Of a stretch of DNA of 64,000 bases, positions 33,725 through 52,465 are shown piece by piece. The stretch comes from a virus. Position 1 is the first letter of the stretch; every line of letters begins with the position of its first letter. A program made the translations under genes and the position numbers. The stretch covers positions 62,001 through 126,000 of the IMG/VR virus record IMGVR_UViG_3300045996_004119; one strand, given 5' to 3'. Under the pieces are notes generated by a model, which did not search any database, was not told where the DNA came from, and saw nothing but the letters and a program-made list of their open reading frames with translations.

Positions 33725-34666
33725 ATGAAGAATGTACCAAAGCGCATGCGCTCGAACGCCCGCTGCGCTCTGGTCCTGACCGCCGCGTGCTTCGTCGGCT
33801 GCGGAAAATCACAGACGACGCAGGATCGAGCGGCGGCAGCGACGGCAACATCGCCACCTACAGAGACTGCACCGCCTGCCTCGCCAGCGGCTGCTCCGGC
33901 AGTCGCGCCAGACCTACCACCCCCGTCTCTGCCGCCACTCGCGAGCGGAGCGGTAATCGAGCTGGACACAGCATATTTCGCCAGGGGTGGAGCATCGGCC
34001 ATTCGCGGCGTGACGAACCTACCAGATCATACCGTACTATCTATCTCAGCGGAAGAGCCGGGGGACTTCGGCAAGTCTGACAGCGCACAGGCAACCGTTC
34101 GAGCCGGGCGTTTCGGCGGCATGGCCTCGAGCGCTGGCTCTGATGTGCCGGAGGGGATCTACGCGGTCGAGGTGAACACGATTTTGCCAATGGCTCAGCC
34201 GGAGGATGTGCAGGAGGTCATCGGGAAAGCTGGCGAGCGACTCAGCGGAAAGCTGGTGAAAGCAGATGCCGGTGGCAAGATCGTCTCTGTGCGGACCGTG
34301 GCGATGGTCGGCATGAAAGGTGCCGCGGAGTCTGCCTCTCTCAAGAGGGCCACAGACCGGCGAACTGCATTGCAGCGCGCGCTGGCTAGGCTGGATCAGC
34401 TAGAGCGCAGGGGTAGGATGTCGCCACACGAGTTCACGCCAGAGTGCATGACCAGGATGCGCGCCGACCATGAAGCGCTAGATGTTGTCGCCCGCGATCT
34501 GGACCAGATGGCGCTCACACTCCCGGGCGTAGTAGATCTTCGGTACGCCTCGAGAATATTGCAAACCTGCGTTTCATGCGCGGACAGCTTCGTAGATTCA
34601 TGCGACGACGGACGAAGCAAGCTTCGTGCGGCATCCTCCGCCATCGCTGCCGGAAAGCTCCGCTAG
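33725..34666 (+). CDS. Lipoprotein of foreign composition, cargo gene
   Basis: 313 residues. Signal peptide with lipobox FVGC (Cys26), an Ala/Pro/Thr-rich linker, a beta domain (~75-180), and a helical C-terminal half with three late Cys (LQTCVSCADSFVDSC). The body has clearly lower GC and a different codon choice from its neighbours (for example the AT-rich run near 34020-34050). Terminator on its left, no partner gene on its right: a free-standing cargo unit. Function unknown. Confidence 0.7.
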   Translation: MKNVPKRMRSNARCALVLTAACFVGCGKSQTTQDRAAAATATSPPTETAPPASPAAAPAVAPDLPPPSLPPLASGAVIELDTAYFARGGASAIRGVTNLPDHTVLSISAEEPGDFGKSDSAQATVRAGRFGGMASSAGSDVPEGIYAVEVNTILPMAQPEDVQEVIGKAGERLSGKLVKADAGGKIVSVRTVAMVGMKGAAESASLKRATDRRTALQRALARLDQLERRGRMSPHEFTPECMTRMRADHEALDVVARDLDQMALTLPGVVDLRYASRILQTCVSCADSFVDSCDDGRSKLRAASSAIAAGKLR

Positions 34667-35887: not shown

Positions 35888-35916
35888 TTGATAGACCATT
35901 GGTCTACCAATGTCAA
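35888..35916 (-). promoter_or_regulatory. Promoter with perfect TAGACCA-T-TGGTCTA operator (reverse strand)
   Basis: Reverse strand: TTGACA (35916-35911), 17-nt spacer, TATCAA (35893-35888). The spacer is filled by a perfect palindrome, TAGACCA-T-TGGTCTA (35892-35906). This is the best copy of an operator repeated at 37.5, 39.5 and 44.2 kb. A protein bound here would block RNA polymerase. Confidence 0.7.
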
Positions 35917-37519: not shown

Positions 37520-37547
37520 ATGATAGATCACTGGTCTACCATGTCAA
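37520..37547 (-). promoter_or_regulatory. Promoter with TAGATCA-C-TGGTCTA operator (reverse strand)
   Basis: Reverse strand: TTGACA (37547-37542), 16-nt spacer, TATCAT (37525-37520). The spacer holds TAGATCA-C-TGGTCTA (37524-37538), one mismatch from the perfect palindrome at 35.9 kb. Confidence 0.65.
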
Positions 37548-37703
37548 TGGCGGCGACCAACTTTTTTCGGAGAGCGCGGCGGCCGGCGTTGCGTCGACAT
37601 GCCTCCGAGCGTGACAGCGTCGATGGGGTGCGGCATCCGCAGATCTGCGGACGGCGTCGCGCTCGCGCGGTGCGCATAGCTGACCGGGTCACCAGGAGGT
37701 CCC

Positions 37704-39011
37704 ATGTCACGCGTGCCGCTCATCTCATTGATCATCGCCACCGCTGCCGCCTGCTCGCCGGAGGCGCCGCTCGAACAGCTCGGGCAGGTCGACGCCTCGT
37801 TCTCCGCTGGCCCGTTCACAGTCCAGCCTGGGGAGGACCGGACGGTCTGCTCCTACGTCCGCGCGGACAACCAGGAGGCCGCCGACATCTCCGCCTTCAT
37901 CACGCAGCAGGCGCGGGGCGGGCACCACATCATCGTCTACGCCGTGGACCACCCGATCGACTCGGAGCCGCACGTCTGCACCCAGGGCGGACAGCCCGGG
38001 TGGGACACCATGCTCATCTCGCAGCAGGAGCGCGAGGAGGTCCGGTTCCCGGCGGGCGTCGGCTACCGGATCGGTCCCAAGCAGCAGTTCGTGCTGGAGA
38101 CGCACTTCATCAACTCGAGCCCGGAGCCGGTCGACGTGTCGAGCCGCTTCGGCGTGGTCTATGCCGCGCCCGGGTCGGTCCGCGATCGCGCGGCCACGTA
38201 CTACTTCGGGACGATGAATATCGACGTCCCGGCTCGCGGGCGCGCGACGTCGGCCGGGTCATGCGCCCCGCCGGTGCCGATGACGGTGCGCACGATGTTC
38301 GGGCACCAGCACGAGCACGGCACAGCGCTGGACGTCCAGCTCGTACCGGGTGACGGGAGCGCGCCGCGGGCCCTCTACCGCTCGACCGACTGGGCCAACG
38401 CGCCGCTCACGACGTTCGAGGGCGGGCTCTTGGTCGGTCCCGCCGACCGGCTGCGGGTGACCTGCGACTGGGAGAACACGGGCGCCGACCGGCTGCGGTT
38501 CCCGGACGAGATGTGTTTCTCCATCGGCTACTACTGGCCGGCCGAGATGTCCTTCACGTGCGCATCGGGCGGCGGTGGGCCGGAGGACCAGTGCACCTGC
38601 TTCGCCCGCGGCGGTCTCGACGTGGGGCCGGGCGGCGGGTCGGCGGAGCTCGCGGCGCGGCGCGCTGAGGAGGTGCCGGGCGCCGGTGGGCCGCTCAGCG
38701 CGGGGGACGCCATCTACTGCTTCCTCTACGCGCCGGAGGACTACGGCCCCGCGGGCCCGCTCCCGACGGCGCGCCCGCGCTATTTCCGCGACGCGCAAGG
38801 GGCGGAGCTCGGGAGCTCCGAGGACGCGGCGGTGATCGCGTTCGCGGACGTGACGCCGGGGAGCTACGTGGCGAGCTGCATGATGGACGTGGTTGGCGGC
38901 GGCTTCATCGCTGGGAGCGGCGACGTCGTGAACGCGACGCCGGCTCTCCTCGAGGTGGGCGCCGAGGGCACCGCTCGCGCCGAGGTCGTGCTCGACTACG
39001 CGATCCCGTAG
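37704..39011 (+). CDS. Lipoprotein resembling copper type II ascorbate-dependent monooxygenases (PHM/DBM fold)
   Basis: 435 residues, strong AGGAGG site before the ATG. Signal peptide with lipobox AAAC (Cys17). The body matches the peptidylglycine/dopamine-beta monooxygenase layout with all six expected copper ligands: HHIIVY (His74, His75), LETHFIN (His134), GHQHEHG (His201, His203) and DEMC (Met270); the DEMC block is identical to that in animal PHM. So an O2- and reductant-dependent hydroxylase on the cell surface is a fair inference; the substrate is unknown. A C-terminal ~150-residue region is extra. It is isolated between reverse-strand genes and looks like lysogeny cargo. Confidence 0.75.
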   Translation: MSRVPLISLIIATAAACSPEAPLEQLGQVDASFSAGPFTVQPGEDRTVCSYVRADNQEAADISAFITQQARGGHHIIVYAVDHPIDSEPHVCTQGGQPGWDTMLISQQEREEVRFPAGVGYRIGPKQQFVLETHFINSSPEPVDVSSRFGVVYAAPGSVRDRAATYYFGTMNIDVPARGRATSAGSCAPPVPMTVRTMFGHQHEHGTALDVQLVPGDGSAPRALYRSTDWANAPLTTFEGGLLVGPADRLRVTCDWENTGADRLRFPDEMCFSIGYYWPAEMSFTCASGGGGPEDQCTCFARGGLDVGPGGGSAELAARRAEEVPGAGGPLSAGDAIYCFLYAPEDYGPAGPLPTARPRYFRDAQGAELGSSEDAAVIAFADVTPGSYVASCMMDVVGGGFIAGSGDVVNATPALLEVGAEGTARAEVVLDYAIP

Positions 39012-39019
39012 CCGCTGGG

Positions 39020-39376
39020 CTACCGCTCGTCGAGGTACCGCGCGATGGCCGTCAGGATGGCGGCCTCGCGGTTCTCCAGCCCGTACACCCCCTCCACCCG
39101 GGTCGCCAGCTGCCGGTCCATCCACACCTGCTGGGCGTCCTCGGGGGCGCCGATGTCGACGTCGGCGGGCAGAACCGGCCGCGGCTTCGCGGCGAGCAGC
39201 CGGGCGACGGCGGCCTGCACGTGCTGCGTCGGCTTGAGCTCGCGCCGCTGCTCGAGCCGGGCCCACATCCGCGCCGGAATCTGAAGACGCAGGCGCACCC
39301 GGCCGTTGCGGGCAGCCATCTCGGCGGCGGGCTTGATGCCGCGGGCCTCGCCGCGTAGGTCGCTGCCGCTCACCAC
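39020..39376 (-). CDS. Small DNA-binding-type protein (ribbon-helix-helix-like start)
   Basis: 118 residues from a GTG; an in-frame ATG at 39319 gives 99. VRLRLQIPARMWARLEQRRE looks like the strand plus helix of a ribbon-helix-helix repressor; the rest is helical. It is behind a degenerate copy of the TAGACCA operator, so it could be an autoregulator. The family call is weak. Confidence 0.5.
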   Translation of the reverse strand: MVSGSDLRGEARGIKPAAEMAARNGRVRLRLQIPARMWARLEQRRELKPTQHVQAAVARLLAAKPRPVLPADVDIGAPEDAQQVWMDRQLATRVEGVYGLENREAAILTAIARYLDER

Positions 39377-39441
39377 GGGCGGGCACCGACGAGGACAGGG
39401 GACGCGTAGCGGGCGGGGCTGTGGTCGGGCGACATGGCCAT
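39370..39441 (-). CDS. Short leader ORF coupled to the gene at 39376, candidate
   Basis: MAMSPDHSPARYASPVLVGA plus three residues, ending in a TGGTGA that overlaps the next GTG. The -10 box at 39450-39445 puts transcription start near or just after the first ATG, so translation may begin leaderless and pass on by coupling. Composition alone cannot prove it is translated. Confidence 0.3.
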   Translation of the reverse strand: MAMSPDHSPARYASPVLVGARPW

Positions 39442-39444
39442 GGC

Positions 39445-39473
39445 ATGGTAACCCGCCGGTCTACCAAGTGCAA
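39445..39473 (-). promoter_or_regulatory. Degenerate operator-promoter (reverse strand)
   Basis: TTGCAC (39473-39468), 17-nt spacer, TACCAT (39450-39445). One half-site, CGGTCTACCAA, is kept; the other half is lost. Confidence 0.45.
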
Positions 39474-39534
39474 CGGGGCAGCGGGCAGCCGGCGAGGCGC
39501 CGGGTGCGACACCGTCGCCGTAATCGACGCAACA

Positions 39535-39556
39535 TTGATGGTAGACCACTGGACAA
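39535..39556 (+). promoter_or_regulatory. Degenerate TAGACCA operator before the rightward operon
   Basis: TTGATGGTAGACCACTGGAC: a -35-like TTGATG followed by TAGACCA-C-TGGACAA, with one good half-site. The -10 is poor. It lies ~30 nt before the gene at 39585, back to back with the reverse copy at 39445-39473. Confidence 0.45.
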
Positions 39557-39584
39557 CCATGCGACTCGGATCCACCATCTGGAC

Positions 39585-40103
39585 ATGGCGAAGCGCCCCG
39601 CATCCGCAGACTGGTCCGGCACCCCGCAGCAAGCGCTCGCTCTCCTGCGGGTGGAGCTCTCCTACCTGCTCGCGGTGCCAGCGATGCTGCTTCTGGGCAC
39701 CGAGCTCAAGCGGCACCCGGTCCACGCGCGCTGGCTCCGCAGCATCCCTGGCAGCGATGCCCGCAAGCTCGGCGTCCTGTGCGCGGCCGCGCCGGCCGAG
39801 AAGCGCGCTGCCGTCAAGGCGGCGTTCTCGCAGGTGCTCTCGGCGGTCGACGCGGCGACGATGCGCGGGGTCTGCGATGGGACGGAGTACGCGATCGAGG
39901 TCCGCGTCTCGGGCGCCGATGGGTTCTACCCGTCCGACGAGGTGATCCTCGACAGCTCGGGCGGCGACGGCGTGCGCCGGCTCGCGTACTGCCGGCGCGT
40001 TCCGGCTGACCGGCAGGGCGCTGAGGAGATCCGTGGCCTGATCGAGCAGGAGGCGTGGGAGGCGGGGGCGGACGCGGTTCAGGTCACCGTGAGGGCGGCG
40101 TGA
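39585..40103 (+). CDS. Hypothetical protein, first gene of the 39.6-44.1 kb operon
   Basis: 172 residues. Helical first half with a hydrophobic stretch (LSYLLAVPAMLLLGTELK), then a beta-rich half (TEYAIEVRVSGADGFYPSDE). No family recognised. Followed by six to seven coupled genes. Confidence 0.6.
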   Translation: MAKRPASADWSGTPQQALALLRVELSYLLAVPAMLLLGTELKRHPVHARWLRSIPGSDARKLGVLCAAAPAEKRAAVKAAFSQVLSAVDAATMRGVCDGTEYAIEVRVSGADGFYPSDEVILDSSGGDGVRRLAYCRRVPADRQGAEEIRGLIEQEAWEAGADAVQVTVRAA

Positions 40104-40360
40104 TGACTCCTACGCTCGCCGAGAATGCCACTCGACGAAAGGCCATGTCCATGTCACACCTCATCTCCGCGCGCCGGCTCATCCTCTCCGCCATTAACGA
40201 CCCTGGCGCCGCCGCGGAGCTGCTGAGCCGAGCGGTGGACTACATCCGCGCGGCGCTCGCAGGCGTGACGCCGGAGACGCCGGCCGCCGTGGCGAAGGCG
40301 GTGACCACGGAGGCGGAGGGGCTGTTCGCCATCATGGAGTGCTTTGAGGAGGTGTCCTGA
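40103..40360 (+). CDS. Small helical protein
   Basis: 85 residues; TGATG overlap with the gene before. ISARRLILSAINDPGAAAEL and LLSRAVDYIRAALAG helices. A later in-frame start (40145) is possible. No family recognised. Confidence 0.5.
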   Translation: MTPTLAENATRRKAMSMSHLISARRLILSAINDPGAAAELLSRAVDYIRAALAGVTPETPAAVAKAVTTEAEGLFAIMECFEEVS

Positions 40361-40788
40361 TGACCTGTCGGCATGCGAAGGGCGATCCGAATTGCAGCAG
40401 CCATCCGTCCAACGTGGCGGCTCGTGTGCGCGATGAAGTCGCGGCGGAACGACGTGACTTCGAGGCGAAGCGCGCCGAGGCTGAAACCAAGACGCCGGAC
40501 GCCGAGCGCTACGAGATCGTCGACACCGTGCGCGTCGGTCCGCATCTCGTCGCCAAGGTCCTCTACCCGAACTGCAAGAAGTGCAGCTACGAGGGAAACA
40601 AGGTGATGGTCTGGCTCAACGTCACGGAGGCCGATGCGCTCCGCTGGCGGCGCATCGATCCGCACTTTCGCGACCCGGGCGCGCAGCGGTCGCCGCGGGA
40701 GGCGCCCGGACCCGCCGCGCGATTCCCCGCGTCGGACGATGGCTGGCATGATGCGCTCAGCTACGCGCGCACGAAGGCGGCCCTGTGA
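40360..40788 (+). CDS. Small Cys/His-containing protein
   Basis: 142 residues. MTCRHAKGDPNCSSHPSN at the start and CKKC in the middle suggest a zinc site. Charged helix (VRDEVAAERRDFEAKRAEAE). No family recognised. The first base of its ATG is the last base of the previous stop codon. Confidence 0.55.
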   Translation: MTCRHAKGDPNCSSHPSNVAARVRDEVAAERRDFEAKRAEAETKTPDAERYEIVDTVRVGPHLVAKVLYPNCKKCSYEGNKVMVWLNVTEADALRWRRIDPHFRDPGAQRSPREAPGPAARFPASDDGWHDALSYARTKAAL

Positions 40789-41150
40789 CCATCCCTCCCT
40801 CCAAGCTCACCGCCGCCCGCCTCGCCGCCGCGGAGGTCATCATCGCCGAGGGGCTCACGGGAACGAACTGGGCCGGACGTGGCCCGGAATGGCTCCGTCG
40901 TGCGGCCACGAACCTGAAGTTCTCCTTCGATGTCAGCTACCACGTGCATCCCAAGCAGGATGAGCAGTCGCCGGCAGCAATCCTCGTGCACGTGTACGAG
41001 GAGTGCGGCGGCGTCAGCGTCGCGGTGGAGCCGCGGCACCTCGGCAAGCTGAGCACGGCTCAGGCCGCTGAGACGGTGACCCAGCTCGCACGAATCGCCG
41101 AGGTCGCCCGCAAGGTCGAGGCGGCCATCGCGGAGGCGCTCGCGTCATGA
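40785..41150 (+). CDS. Hypothetical protein
   Basis: 121 residues from a GTG overlapping the previous stop. Helix, then beta strands (FSFDVSYHVHPKQD, AAILVHVYEECGGVSVAVEP), then a long C-terminal helix. No family recognised. Confidence 0.55.
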   Translation: MTIPPSKLTAARLAAAEVIIAEGLTGTNWAGRGPEWLRRAATNLKFSFDVSYHVHPKQDEQSPAAILVHVYEECGGVSVAVEPRHLGKLSTAQAAETVTQLARIAEVARKVEAAIAEALAS

Positions 41151-41890
41151 CTCGCCGCCTCGCAAAGACTCGACCGTCGCCTCCGGCGCCCGCCCCGTGG
41201 TCGCCGCAGCAGCCTTCCCGCGAGCCCTTCGTGCCGGGGTGGGTCGCAGAGCGCCACACGGCGAGCGGGCTGCCGTGTCACGTGGGCTCGATCGTCACCG
41301 GCATCGCCAGCGGCGTCTACCGTCTGCCGCGGTTCCAGCGGCCATGGCGGTGGAGCGACGAGGACACGCTCTACCTGCTCGACTCCATTCTCGCCGGGTA
41401 CCACACCGGGCAGCTGCTGCTCTGGGATCGGAACGACCTGCCGGCTTCCACGGAGCGCTTCGGCGAGATCGAGGTCACTGCGCCGGCCGGTCGTGGACGC
41501 CTCGTGGTCGACGGCCAGCAGCGACTCGGCGCGATCGCGACGGCGGCGCTCGGCCAGCGCTTCGCGTTCCACCTGCTCGACGGGCGGTTCGCAACGGACG
41601 CTGCTGGTCCGTGGTGGTGCCCTGCTGGGCTGGTCATGTGCACGAGCCCCCGCTCGATCGACTGGATCGTGCACCACGCTCGCGAGCATCGGCTCGACGA
41701 GCACCAGCTCATCGGCGCGTTTGGGGCTGCGATTGACTCGCTGTGCTTCACGTCGCTGTACACCGTGACCATGGATCCGCAGTGGCCGCTCGACCGCGTG
41801 ATCGAGAGCTACCGCCGGCTGAACACCACGGGCGTGCGGATGTCGGCGGAGGACCTCGAGGCGGGGCTGCGGCGGGCGGTGGAGCCGTGA
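41147..41890 (+). CDS. DUF262-domain protein (ParB/GmrSD N-terminal type), stand-alone
   Basis: 247 residues. The DUF262 signatures are clear: LPRFQRPWRWS (60-70), a LLDSILAGYHTGQLLLW helix-strand, VDGQQRLGAIA (121-131), and LNTTGVRMSAEDLE near the end. DUF262 is the NTP-dependent N-terminal half of GmrSD type IV restriction enzymes and of several defence proteins. The HNH-type DUF1524 nuclease half is missing, so it may act with a partner (perhaps the next gene) or as an inhibitor of such enzymes. Confidence 0.8.
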   Translation: MTRRLAKTRPSPPAPAPWSPQQPSREPFVPGWVAERHTASGLPCHVGSIVTGIASGVYRLPRFQRPWRWSDEDTLYLLDSILAGYHTGQLLLWDRNDLPASTERFGEIEVTAPAGRGRLVVDGQQRLGAIATAALGQRFAFHLLDGRFATDAAGPWWCPAGLVMCTSPRSIDWIVHHAREHRLDEHQLIGAFGAAIDSLCFTSLYTVTMDPQWPLDRVIESYRRLNTTGVRMSAEDLEAGLRRAVEP

Positions 41891-44200: not shown

Positions 44201-44449
44201 ATGTCGAATATCATCGACGCGATTCGGGCAGAGCTCGACCGGCTGGACGCAGGCGGCGACGACGGCATCGAGGTGGAGGCGCATCCGGCCGGCGTTCGCT
44301 TCTACGATACCCAGGAAAGCGCCGTGTACGACGCGGCAGAGGCGCTCGCGGCACTGCGCGCGGTCGGACCGGACGACATCAACCCCGACGATGGTGGCGG
44401 CTTCGGGGCCGCGTGGAATGCGCTCGCGCACCTCCAGGAGGTGCCTTGA
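44201..44449 (+). CDS. Small acidic protein before the XRE regulator
   Basis: 82 residues with GGAGGGAGC before the ATG. AIRAELDRLDAGGDDGIEVE then an alpha helix and an acidic turn. No family recognised; the stop overlaps the start of the regulator gene. Confidence 0.6.
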   Translation: MSNIIDAIRAELDRLDAGGDDGIEVEAHPAGVRFYDTQESAVYDAAEALAALRAVGPDDINPDDGGGFGAAWNALAHLQEVP

Positions 44450-44961
44450 CGCAGCAGCTTGACTCCGCAACCCTCGCCGCCGAGCTGCGCCGGGAGATCG
44501 CCGCCGCCCTCGCCTCTGCGGGGCTCTCGCAGCGCGACCTTTCCGAGTCGACCGGGATCGCCCAGAGCGGCATCAGCCGGGCGCTCACGGGCACGGCCGA
44601 CCCTCAGCTCTCCACGTTGGTGCGCCTGCTCGCGGCGGTAGGCTGCCGGCTGCGGGTGGAGCTGGTCGACACGCCCAACGACGTAGAGATCGCCACAGGG
44701 ACGAACTACCGAACACGTTTCAGCGACAAGAGGGAGCAAATGCCTACAACCAAGTTCAACGTATCTAGAAACGAAGTCTGCGTGCTGCATAGCAGCGACT
44801 GGGCTGGCGACGTGGAAATTGTCTGGAGCGACAGCGGGACAGAGCGTCGCGTCAAAATGCCGGGCAACATGCTGCTCAGCATCTCCTCGGCTATCTTCCA
44901 GGCGAAGCTCGCTCAGAGGGCGAAGGCGTTCGTGGATCGCCTGACGTTCAGGCGCTCTTGA
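44446..44961 (+). CDS. XRE (Cro/CI-type) transcription regulator with C-terminal extension
   Basis: 171 residues from a TTG overlapping the previous stop (TTGA). LSQRDLSESTGIAQSGISRA (about 28-47) and LTGTADPQLSTLVRLLAAVG are a clear Cro/CI-type helix-turn-helix. The C-terminal half has lower GC and a possible own start (ATG at 44740 with AGGGAG), so it may be two fused or overlapping genes. Placed behind the dual-operator promoter, it is a candidate for the protein that reads one of these operators. Confidence 0.75.
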   Translation: MTQQLDSATLAAELRREIAAALASAGLSQRDLSESTGIAQSGISRALTGTADPQLSTLVRLLAAVGCRLRVELVDTPNDVEIATGTNYRTRFSDKREQMPTTKFNVSRNEVCVLHSSDWAGDVEIVWSDSGTERRVKMPGNMLLSISSAIFQAKLAQRAKAFVDRLTFRRS

Positions 44962-48541: not shown

Positions 48542-51500
48542 TCACCACCCCATTCCGATCTGCCGCGGCTCGCTCCCCCGCCGCGCCGTGGGCGCCGGCC
48601 TCTCCGGCGGCGCCTCCTCGCGCTCATCTCTGGTGAGCATCTCGTAGAGCAGCCGCCCCAGGTCGCGCCCGGCCAGCTCATCCGCAGCCCCGACGCCGGC
48701 AGCCTGGAGCGCCGCGGTCGCGTCGAGCCCGTCCGCGGCCTCGCTCACCCCGACCTTGTGCAACAAGAGCCGGTGCAGCACCTCCTGCAGCGTCCCCTTG
48801 TAGACCGGGGTGTAGACGCGCGCCTGCTTCCGCTGCCCGATGCGCCGCACGCGCCCGATCGCCTGCCGGCGGATCAGCGGGTTGCAGGCCGGGTTTTCGT
48901 ACCAGACCTCGGTCGCGAAGTGGACGAGGTTGTTCAACCCGGTCTGCACCGCGACCGGGTTGACCACGAGAATCCGCCGGCCCTTGCCGACGATCTCCTT
49001 ATCGATCCACGCTTCCCGCTTCTTCGGCGCCACCTTGTCGGCCCACAGGATCGGCGCCTTCTCGCCCGTCGCCTCCTCGAGCAGACGCGCGAGCCGAGGC
49101 ATGAGCTCGAGGTGCCAGACGAAGACCATGACGTTGCGGCCCTCGGCGAGCTCCCGGCGCACCACGTCGACGAGCCACGCCTCCTTCGGGAGCGGATCGC
49201 CCGCGGGGAGCCCCGGCTGCACGGCGACGGTGCCACCGCCGACCGCCTCGGGATAGCGGATCTCGTAGGAGCCGCCATCGGTGTTGCCGACGTCCGCCGT
49301 CGCGCGGTCGAGGTACGACGGGAGCTCGGCCAGCTGCCCGAACAGCCGCCCGGCGAGCTGGGAGAAGCGGTCGCGCTTGATCTGCTGGATCAGCGTCCGC
49401 TGGAGCGCGTGGTACCGCCTGCCGAGCTCGGGGCCCGGGTCAATCTGCTCGACGATCTCCACGGCCGGCGGGAGGTCGATCCCGAGGTCGTCGACGTGGA
49501 GGGTCACCGCGATCGGGAGCAGGTGCCGCAGGAGCAGCGCGGGCAGCACGCCGGGCGCCTGGCCGCTCGTTCGCTCGACACGCTCCACGCGGTCGGTCAT
49601 CGCGCCAAACGACACGGGCTTCCTCGAGTCCTTGTCGCGCATCTCGACCACCTGCTTGAGGTACCCGTACCGCCGGACGAACTCGCCCTGCTCCTCGCGG
49701 CCGAACTCCGCCCGGAAGGCGCTGGAGAGGCTCCAGAGCAAGATGAACAACGAGGACGCGTAGCCGTTCATGACGCTTCCCGTGAGCGCGATCGTCGGCC
49801 GGCGGAGCTGGAACAGCTGCTGCGCGGCGAGGCTCTGCGCGCTGTCCTGACAGCCCGCTTCATGCACCTCGTCGACCACGATCAGGTCGAACAGCCGCGG
49901 ATGCCGGCGCGCGATGTAGTGGGCGAGCGGGACGCGCCTCGGCGACGGGATCGCGTGGAAGAGCGGTTCGTCGCAGGGGGCAGACTCGACCCAGCGCCCG
50001 TGAGCGGTGAGCTTCGCGAGCGCCGTGTGCGCTGCCTCGGCGGAGCCCGCGGGGAGCTTCTCGATGCACACCCGCCCGTCCTGCAGGCGGTACGCGCGCC
50101 AGTCGTACTCGCCGTCGCGCCCGGCGATCATGGCAGCGACGTGCCGCTCCCAACGCTCCCAGGAGGCCCCAGGCGAGGCGTACTGGTCGTCATCCACCGC
50201 ATGCCCGCGGAGCTCCTCCGCGAGCGCCCGCTGCGCCTCCCCACGCGGCGGCAGCAGCAGCATCAGCTCGCGGGCCACCTTCCGGAACTGCGCGCCCCAG
50301 CCCCAGGCCTTTGGGTCCTCGAGCGACGCGAGGTAGATGCCGCGCGCGACCTTGACGGTGGCCGCCTCGTCGTTCGCAGCGAGCAGCAGGTGAGCCGGGA
50401 TGTCGACGAACTCGCGCTTCGGCTCGCTCTTCTGGCCCATGATCCACGTCCCGACCCGACGCGCGAGCGGCGCGATCTTCGGCTGCACGGCCGGCCACGA
50501 ATCCGCGCCGGCCTCGCGACGCTTCGCCAGTACGCCGAGGAACCGCTGCGCGACGTGGCCGCGGATGAGCTGCTGCACCCCGGCCCGCTCGGGGAACACG
50601 GGCGCGAGCAGCGCGGCGAGGCGCACGGCCATCCGGGCCGCCCGGCCGCTGGCGACGAACTCGGTGTGCTCGCACCGGAGGCGCTTGCGGGCGTTCTCGT
50701 CGGCCGGCGTCTCGATCGCGGTGCCGCACCGAGGGCACCGGCCGGAGATGCCCGCCCAGGCGTGGCCGAGCTTGGCCGCCTCGCGCGACAGGATGCCGAT
50801 GACCATGCCGTCGGTCCGGTCCGCCGCGAAGGACTCGACGGCGGCGACGTCATCGAGCACCACCGTGCGCGCCCAGGGGACGACGGCGGCGGCCTGGTCG
50901 GTCCAGTTCTTGAGCAGGTGCGGCGGGCACATCACGAGCACCCGGCGCGCGCCGCGGGTCGCTGCCGTCGCGAGCGCGCACGACGTTTTCCCCGCCCCGA
51001 TTTCCCCCAGCAGAATCGCCGCCTTGTCCGGCCCGTCGAGCAGCCGGCAGACCGCCCGCACGGCGTGCCCCTGGGCTGTGTAGAGCTTCCGCGGCAGTTC
51101 CGGCAGATGGATGGCCTCCGCGTCGCGCGCCGGGTCGTACATGGCCGGGCAGCGCTCGCGCAGCGTCGCGAGCAGGGAGCGGCCGTAGGTGGCCAGCAGG
51201 TCGCCCGCGGTCATGCCTGCGACGCCGCGCGCGCCCGTGACGGCCACGTCCGAACCGAGCCGGTGGTAGCGCCCGGCGCGCAGGTCGAGCGCCGTGATCT
51301 CGAGCTCCGGGTGCTGCACCTGGATCTCGGCCGTAACGTCACCGTCTTTGTTCGTCCGGTGATCCACCGTGGCGAACCGCTTCCTGAACGTTCCCTTCAC
51401 CAGGAGGGGCGGCAGGCCGGCGGCCGCGTCGTCCGGGTCGAGTCGCGCGCCCGAGAGCGCGCCGGAGGCGATCCCCGCGGCGATGTGCGCCGGCTTCGGG

Positions 51501-52465
51501 GCGACCGCGAGCGGGAAGGTCGGGGCGAGCAGCTGGTCGAACGGCTCGACGGGAAGCACGCCCGGGATCGGCGCCTGGCGTCCACCGCGATCGGTGGCGT
51601 GCCAGGGCCGCAGCTGACCGAGCAGCCCGCGCACGTCGAGCGGCGCGATCTCCCACCGGCCGAACCCGGCGCCGTCGAGCGGGGCCACCTCGAGCACAGC
51701 CGGACCCGCCGCGGGGAGCTCGGGGATGGCGTCCGCGTCGGCGCCCCACGCCCGCACGCGCGCCTCGACGGCAGGATCGGGGGCGAGCAGCGCCGGGCGG
51801 CGCCGGGCCACGAGGACGATCTGCTTGAAGGCCTCGAAGTGCGGGGCCGGGACGCGCCAGCAGGTGAGCTCCTCGAAGTGCGTCGCCAGCGTCGCCGCCG
51901 ATGCGCCGAGCGCGTAGAACGGGACGAAGAAGAGCAGAGCGCCGCCGCTCGCGACGGCCGGCGCGAACCGGCGAAGCCAGCGCTCCTCGAGGCGCCCGTG
52001 CTCCGGGTCGAGGTCGTACGGCGGGTTGAGCCACATCACGGTGGCCCCGGCGCCGCGCCCGTACTGCTCGCCCCATTGCAGACGGAACGCGTCGCCCTTC
52101 GCGACCGAGACACGGTGCTCGCGCGAGGCCGCGCGGATCTTTCGGTGGCACGCCTCAGCGCGCGTCGCCTCGAGCTCGCACGCATAGATCTTGTAGCCTT
52201 CGGTGAAGCCCCAGCCGGCGCCGAGCCACCGCTCGACAAGACCCATGATGGCGTCGCCCTCGCCCGCGCACGGGTCGACGATGGCGTGCTCGCGACCCTC
52301 CTCGATGCGAAGCCGCACGAGCGCAGCGATCGACGGGAGCAACTCCTCCGGGGCCGCGTAGAAACCCCCGACGGAAACGGACTCTGGCCTAGCGATGACG
52401 CACCTTCCTCTCCGACTTCTCGAACAACACCACCTGCTCCGCGAGGATCTCCTCGAGCCGCTCAT
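48542..52465 (-). CDS. Adenine-methyltransferase / SNF2-type helicase fusion (DarB-like anti-restriction candidate)
   Basis: About 1,285-1,307 residues. N-terminal N6-adenine methyltransferase: DPCAGEG (64-70, SAM loop) and MWLNPPY (144-150). Then a superfamily-2 helicase: GEIGAGKT (~490), a zinc-finger insert (GRCPRCG ... RCEH), DEVHEAG (~860), ALTGSVMNG, and the C-terminal QAIGRVRRIGQRKQARVYTP, typical of SNF2. Methylase plus helicase without nuclease recalls phage P1 DarB, which protects DNA from type I restriction. The start is unclear: family members begin near IARPESVSVGG, where only ATC/GTC codons exist; the GTG used here overlaps the upstream gene. Confidence 0.85.
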   Translation of the reverse strand: MSGSRRSSRSRWCCSRSRRGRCVIARPESVSVGGFYAAPEELLPSIAALVRLRIEEGREHAIVDPCAGEGDAIMGLVERWLGAGWGFTEGYKIYACELEATRAEACHRKIRAASREHRVSVAKGDAFRLQWGEQYGRGAGATVMWLNPPYDLDPEHGRLEERWLRRFAPAVASGGALLFFVPFYALGASAATLATHFEELTCWRVPAPHFEAFKQIVLVARRRPALLAPDPAVEARVRAWGADADAIPELPAAGPAVLEVAPLDGAGFGRWEIAPLDVRGLLGQLRPWHATDRGGRQAPIPGVLPVEPFDQLLAPTFPLAVAPKPAHIAAGIASGALSGARLDPDDAAAGLPPLLVKGTFRKRFATVDHRTNKDGDVTAEIQVQHPELEITALDLRAGRYHRLGSDVAVTGARGVAGMTAGDLLATYGRSLLATLRERCPAMYDPARDAEAIHLPELPRKLYTAQGHAVRAVCRLLDGPDKAAILLGEIGAGKTSCALATAATRGARRVLVMCPPHLLKNWTDQAAAVVPWARTVVLDDVAAVESFAADRTDGMVIGILSREAAKLGHAWAGISGRCPRCGTAIETPADENARKRLRCEHTEFVASGRAARMAVRLAALLAPVFPERAGVQQLIRGHVAQRFLGVLAKRREAGADSWPAVQPKIAPLARRVGTWIMGQKSEPKREFVDIPAHLLLAANDEAATVKVARGIYLASLEDPKAWGWGAQFRKVARELMLLLPPRGEAQRALAEELRGHAVDDDQYASPGASWERWERHVAAMIAGRDGEYDWRAYRLQDGRVCIEKLPAGSAEAAHTALAKLTAHGRWVESAPCDEPLFHAIPSPRRVPLAHYIARRHPRLFDLIVVDEVHEAGCQDSAQSLAAQQLFQLRRPTIALTGSVMNGYASSLFILLWSLSSAFRAEFGREEQGEFVRRYGYLKQVVEMRDKDSRKPVSFGAMTDRVERVERTSGQAPGVLPALLLRHLLPIAVTLHVDDLGIDLPPAVEIVEQIDPGPELGRRYHALQRTLIQQIKRDRFSQLAGRLFGQLAELPSYLDRATADVGNTDGGSYEIRYPEAVGGGTVAVQPGLPAGDPLPKEAWLVDVVRRELAEGRNVMVFVWHLELMPRLARLLEEATGEKAPILWADKVAPKKREAWIDKEIVGKGRRILVVNPVAVQTGLNNLVHFATEVWYENPACNPLIRRQAIGRVRRIGQRKQARVYTPVYKGTLQEVLHRLLLHKVGVSEAADGLDATAALQAAGVGAADELAGRDLGRLLYEMLTRDEREEAPPERPAPTARRGSEPRQIGMGW

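Follow-up and report, generated by a model that had tools for sequence, protein, structure and literature searches.

The copper enzymes PHM and DBM are textbook animal proteins, which act in hormone amidation and noradrenaline synthesis, respectively. Rat PHM (1OPM/1PHM) has two beta-sandwich domains, six copper ligands in a set order, a DEMC motif and cysteine pairs, and human dopamine beta-hydroxylase (DBH; 4ZEL) has the same catalytic core and ligands. PHM also has three residues, R240, N316 and Y318, which we take from 1OPM to hold the carboxylate of the peptide C-terminus. In bacteria, copper type II monooxygenase-like lipoproteins of Myxococcota (PF03712/PF01082 members) belong to the same family, and no description of the function of these myxobacterial PHM/DBM relatives was found in the literature searched. 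Among phages, the known copper monooxygenase subunit genes are pmoC and amoC. Two reports describe such subunits in freshwater and soil phages (PMC7674155, PMC11849493). Their likeness to the protein studied here, P0001, is that of copper-oxygenase-related phage cargo, whereas their products belong to an unrelated membrane protein family and provide one subunit, not a whole enzyme.

We analyzed a window of 64,000 nucleotides, bases 62001-126000 of the 126,110-base IMG/VR record IMGVR_UViG_3300045996_004119. The P0001 gene (37704..39011, plus strand) is an uninterrupted reading frame of 435 codons, running from the ATG at 37704 to a TAG ending at 39011, with a third-position GC content of 0.93. 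A strong Shine-Dalgarno sequence, AGGAGG (37694..37699, plus strand), ends 4 bases before the ATG, and the gene is intact and real. The product, recognized by open reading frame, alignment, profile and AlphaFold model, is a 435-residue lipoprotein with the PHM/DBM-type dicopper monooxygenase fold. Its N-terminus, MSRVPLISLIIATAAAC, consists of a short signal peptide (37704..37754, plus strand) whose end resembles a lipobox (ATAAAC) and closes on Cys17 (codon TGC, 37752-37754). This cysteine lined up with the lipobox cysteine of both closest relatives, in agreement with the acyl anchor proposed by the first-pass annotation.

To place P0001 in a family, we searched it alone against Pfam. PF01082 matched residues 60-138 (E 0.0053, 17.4 bits) and PF03712 matched residues 194-288 (E 0.12, 12.3 bits), in the right order and both under the curated cut-offs of 30 and 23 bits, which are a convention and no biological feature. 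PF03712 was matched at E<0.01 by 63 of the 71 sequences in the family alignment, which comprises P0001 and 70 relatives, and a profile of bacterial relatives from which P0001 had been left out aligned to its residues 31-281, covering both domains, with 159 bits. When PDB sequences were searched with the family profile, rat PHM (E 1.9e-21) and human DBH (E 1.7e-18) were recovered and nothing else of note.

The AlphaFold model of P0001 had a mean pLDDT of 86, and the residues in the stretch 30-280 mostly scored 92-98. PHM and DBH structures accounted for every one of its 31 best PDB matches, with E-values as low as 4.8e-14 and TM-scores of up to 0.69 by target length. The top TM-scores came from citrate-crystallised PHM structures (5wja_D and 6ala_A); a closed form of PHM has been seen in citrate crystallisation conditions (PMC6123673). 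The model contained the two beta-sandwich domains expected from the comparison with PHM, whose absence would have counted against the first-pass annotation, and P0001 is almost certainly a PHM/DBM-fold protein. No comparable PHM-fold protein was present in a library of viral structures (best TM 0.36), and PHROGs gave no match for P0001.

The CuH-type domain (residues ~31-155; 37794..38168, plus strand) contains H74 and H75 (37923-37928) and H134 (38103-38105), and the CuM-type domain (residues ~160-288; 38181..38567, plus strand) contains H201 (38304-38306), H203 (38310-38312) and M270 (38511-38513), where the domain limits were drawn from the alignment, the PHM profile and the AlphaFold model. 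These residues aligned with H107/H108/H172 and H242/H244/M314 of PHM, respectively. The five histidines were invariant in all 71 aligned sequences, as were N137, N258, E269 and C271, and the columns of M270, C254 and P116 were kept at 90% or more. The M270 column held methionine in 68 sequences and histidine in 3. Because the ligand columns are invariant or nearly so over 71 sequences, the pattern, judged from the alignment, is no product of chance, and the HH, H, HxH and DEMC methionine named as copper ligands in the first-pass annotation were found in place. From the residue-level alignment to PHM, we infer that the ligands would come together as two copper sites in the folded protein. P0001 is likely to be copper-loaded and catalytic. 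The three histidine-bearing sequences are chromosomal homologues (L185:1483-2409, L189:1483-2409 and L140:830-1768) with DEHC or QEHC for DEMC, and represent a natural three-histidine CuM variant.

P0001 also has cysteine pairs in the CuH-type domain (C49/C92) and the CuM-type domain (C187/C286 and C254/C271). These are the equivalents of the DBH disulfides C232-C283, C390-C503 and C466-C488 (PMC4846438), whereas the fourth core pair of DBH, C269-C295, had no evident equivalent. Residues ~297-435 (38592..39008, plus strand) form a C-terminal domain without a Pfam match that is common only to P0001 and its two closest relatives. In the AlphaFold model this domain is beta-rich and not helical, unlike the dimerisation domain of DBM. 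Overall identity is ~20% with PHM and 16% with DBH. P0001 differs from PHM in being a bacterial lipoprotein with an additional C-terminal domain, and from DBH in lacking the dimerisation domain and a DOMON domain, for which no Pfam match was obtained. The positions of R240, N316 and Y318 in PHM are occupied by F199, F272 and I274 in P0001, and the PHM residues are not conserved across the 71-sequence family. The contig, possibly incomplete, gave no NHL-repeat (PAL-like) match above the cut-off. P0001 has the anatomy of a dicopper monooxygenase but is neither PHM nor DBM proper.

The genes to the left of P0001 encode an integrase, a DnaB-like helicase, RecT, terminase, major head protein, sheath, tape-measure, baseplate and endolysin, and those to the right encode a large helicase, a 5'-3' exonuclease, an HNH nuclease and a sigma factor. 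With phage genes flanking P0001 to the left and to the right, we rejected a chromosomal origin of the contig and conclude with high confidence that the gene is borne by a phage, deep inside a temperate contractile-tail genome. The description of P0001 as isolated cargo of a phage-like element therefore holds, and nothing near the gene was recognised as an electron donor or a substrate partner.

The P0001 gene is a single plus-strand gene amid minus-strand genes, and no sigma70-like promoter was found on the plus strand of its region. A palindromic 21-mer, TGRTAGAYCAYTGGTCTACCA, occurs at 35889-35909, 37521-37541 and 39539-39559, with a weak copy at 39446-39466. These copies lie within 2 kb on either side of the gene, where zero would be expected by chance. 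The copy at 37521-37541 is situated between TTGACA (at 37547) and TATCAT (ending at 37520), which constitute a minus-strand sigma70-type promoter divergent to the P0001 gene; no other sigma70-like promoter was found in the region. The 21-mers are probable phage operators for the minus-strand genes, likely bound by a repressor of the phage, for which the HTH protein encoded at 44413-44961 is a possible candidate.

Other reading frames of this phage were also noted. A lipoprotein-like frame with the lipobox FVGC, no Pfam family and a lower GC3 than its neighbours is located at 33725-34666 (plus strand) of the window. The frame at 41147-41890 (plus strand) encodes a GmrSD/DUF262 N-terminal domain alone, with partial matches to candidate defence proteins, and that at 48542-52465 (minus strand) encodes a 1307-residue protein with a helicase match and what looks, by eye, like a DNA methylase part at its N-terminus. 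Left of the window, at 39107-41620 of the contig (L003:19107 to L004:1620), the DnaB-like helicase has an intein-like insert at its Walker A motif (GKA..HNTSK).

Relatives of P0001 in chromosomes were sought by several approaches. At E<=1e-20, the fold family was found in 69 of 379 sampled Myxococcota genomes, with up to 8 matches per genome. The first-pass annotation had assigned such enzymes to animals and some bacteria, which understates a family that is abundant in Myxococcota chromosomes, often in several copies. The Myxococcota lipoproteins have the same invariant columns as P0001 and are the probable source of the phage gene. Nearly all of the matches were 25-32% identical to P0001, the exception being genome G382 (10.8 Mb), whose relative was 46% identical over P0001 residues 13-435 (E 9e-129). 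The G382 contig carries genes that we named by eye as gdh (glutamate dehydrogenase), cdsA and uppS, and it had no gene in common with the P0001 phage besides the cargo. A search with an alignment of the P0001 subtype recovered it in just 1 of 318 genomes of the class to which G382 belongs, namely G382 itself.

With the single protein as query, no close relative was returned from genomes, viral contigs, phages or plasmids; close relatives surfaced only in profile and whole-genome searches. The DNA pattern DEMCxxxGYY in genome contigs led to relatives in Myxococcales, Kofleriaceae, Poribacteria, Gemmatimonadota and others, beside many unrelated beta-proteobacterial matches (DEMCASGGYY), and its match in viral contigs was an unrelated intein-bearing terminase. 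The pattern EMCxxxxYYYP hit two AT-richer viral contigs, neither of which contained a relative.

Scanning viral contigs with the P0001/G382 alignment, we identified a second phage contig, IMGVR_UViG_3300009032_000007 (40 kb), which encodes head, sheath, tube, tape-measure and baseplate proteins and is thus a myovirus. Its relative (L206:2600-3928) is full-length, with a lipobox and all ligands, and is 48-49% identical to P0001. The cargo gene is the sole gene common to the two phage contigs, and in both it occupies an accessory region after the tail module. In the second phage it adjoins two further lipoprotein reading frames. P0001, the second phage protein and the G382 protein form one clade (support 100/99), separate from the other Myxococcota members and with the C-terminal domain as its private feature, and the second phage protein is nearer to the G382 copy (62%) than to P0001 (48%). 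The dN/dS estimates (omega 0.44-0.65) were uninformative, as dS is saturated by a third-position GC content of 93%, and were set aside.

These results bear on where the subtype resides. That two of its three known members are phage-borne is suggestive of an association with phages, although the collections searched differ in size and sensitivity and the figure is not a rate. The single occurrence among the 318 class genomes, together with the second, unrelated myovirus, argues for recurrent phage cargo, and the chromosomal member means that the subtype is not exclusive to phages. Phages thus seem to move the P0001-type enzyme between hosts. As for these hosts, terminase and head-protein scans returned only distant or short phage relatives, and, within the order of G382, 6 genomes out of 184 contained relatives of the head protein at 31-40% identity. 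Based on the 70% GC of the phage and the myxobacterial relatives of its cargo, the host is likely a myxobacterium, probably of Polyangia type.

We propose that P0001 is probably a lysogenic-conversion lipoprotein which a temperate contractile-tail phage carries as an accessory "moron" and which oxidises a surface or secreted substrate. In lysogens, high expression of the accessory loci of temperate phages is common (PMC7067206). According to this model, P0001 would leave the cytoplasm through Sec and, with a lipid attached to Cys17, stay anchored in the host envelope. Its two beta-sandwiches would be loaded with two coppers outside the cytoplasm. The copper at H74/H75/H134 would serve electron transfer and that at H201/H203/M270 would handle O2 and substrate, such that O2 and reductant are used to hydroxylate, at a C-H bond, a molecule that is secreted or exposed at the surface. 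Unlike that of PHM, this substrate would be something other than a peptide with a C-terminal glycine. The surface or secretions of the host would be altered upon lysogeny, and we rate the chance that the phage benefits by such conversion as about even.

An alternative that we consider unlikely is that P0001 acts in superinfection exclusion or receptor masking, keeping other phages out as a scaffold on the cell surface whose copper chemistry is incidental or lost. The known superinfection-exclusion lipoproteins are smaller than P0001 and unrelated to it, and those of the Ltp type have, to our knowledge, another fold and size and no metal site. Nevertheless, Ltp-type lipoproteins resemble P0001 in being phage-encoded and at the surface, and are established temperate-phage cargo (PMC3952083); moreover, in both phages the cargo gene is near further lipoprotein reading frames in the region after the tail module. 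However, the six copper ligands and the cysteine pairs are kept between the phages at less than 50% identity, which goes beyond the needs of a scaffold. It is improbable that the gene was captured from a host without any selected benefit to the phage, either as a chance-transduced myxobacterial paralogue or as a host stretch in the assembly. The spread of the fold family through Myxococcota genomes, with its multiple copies, and the chromosomal subtype member beside gdh, cdsA and uppS would fit such a capture, but a subtype this rare in its class was found in two phages with no other detectable gene in common, and the P0001 gene is intact and embedded between phage genes and repeated phage operators. 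Finally, a true peptidylglycine-type monooxygenase, which would hydroxylate the C-terminal glycine of secreted peptides and start their amidation, is very improbable even though PHM is the closest solved structure, because the carboxylate-holding residues are absent and no PAL partner was found on the contig; the earlier suggestion of a role on secreted peptides is accordingly weak as far as PHM-type amidation is concerned.

Altogether, we favor P0001 as a lysogenic-conversion enzyme. Its family is known; what is new, as far as tested here, is a whole PHM-type protein in phages that recurs as a distinct subtype. More tentatively, the subtype may constitute a phage-associated dicopper monooxygenase clade, repeatedly carried by unrelated myxobacterial phages to let their lysogens oxidise a compound that is secreted or on the surface. 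The presence of a single-gene version in two otherwise unrelated phages suggests that one enzyme alone can benefit a lysogen, and a comparison of lysogens that have the gene with lysogens that lack it should therefore bring its substrate within reach. If the view of such a clade is correct, phage receptors or social or predatory signalling would be changed in lysogens, and P0001 would mark the first description of a complete PHM-type enzyme from a virus, within the scope of our searches.
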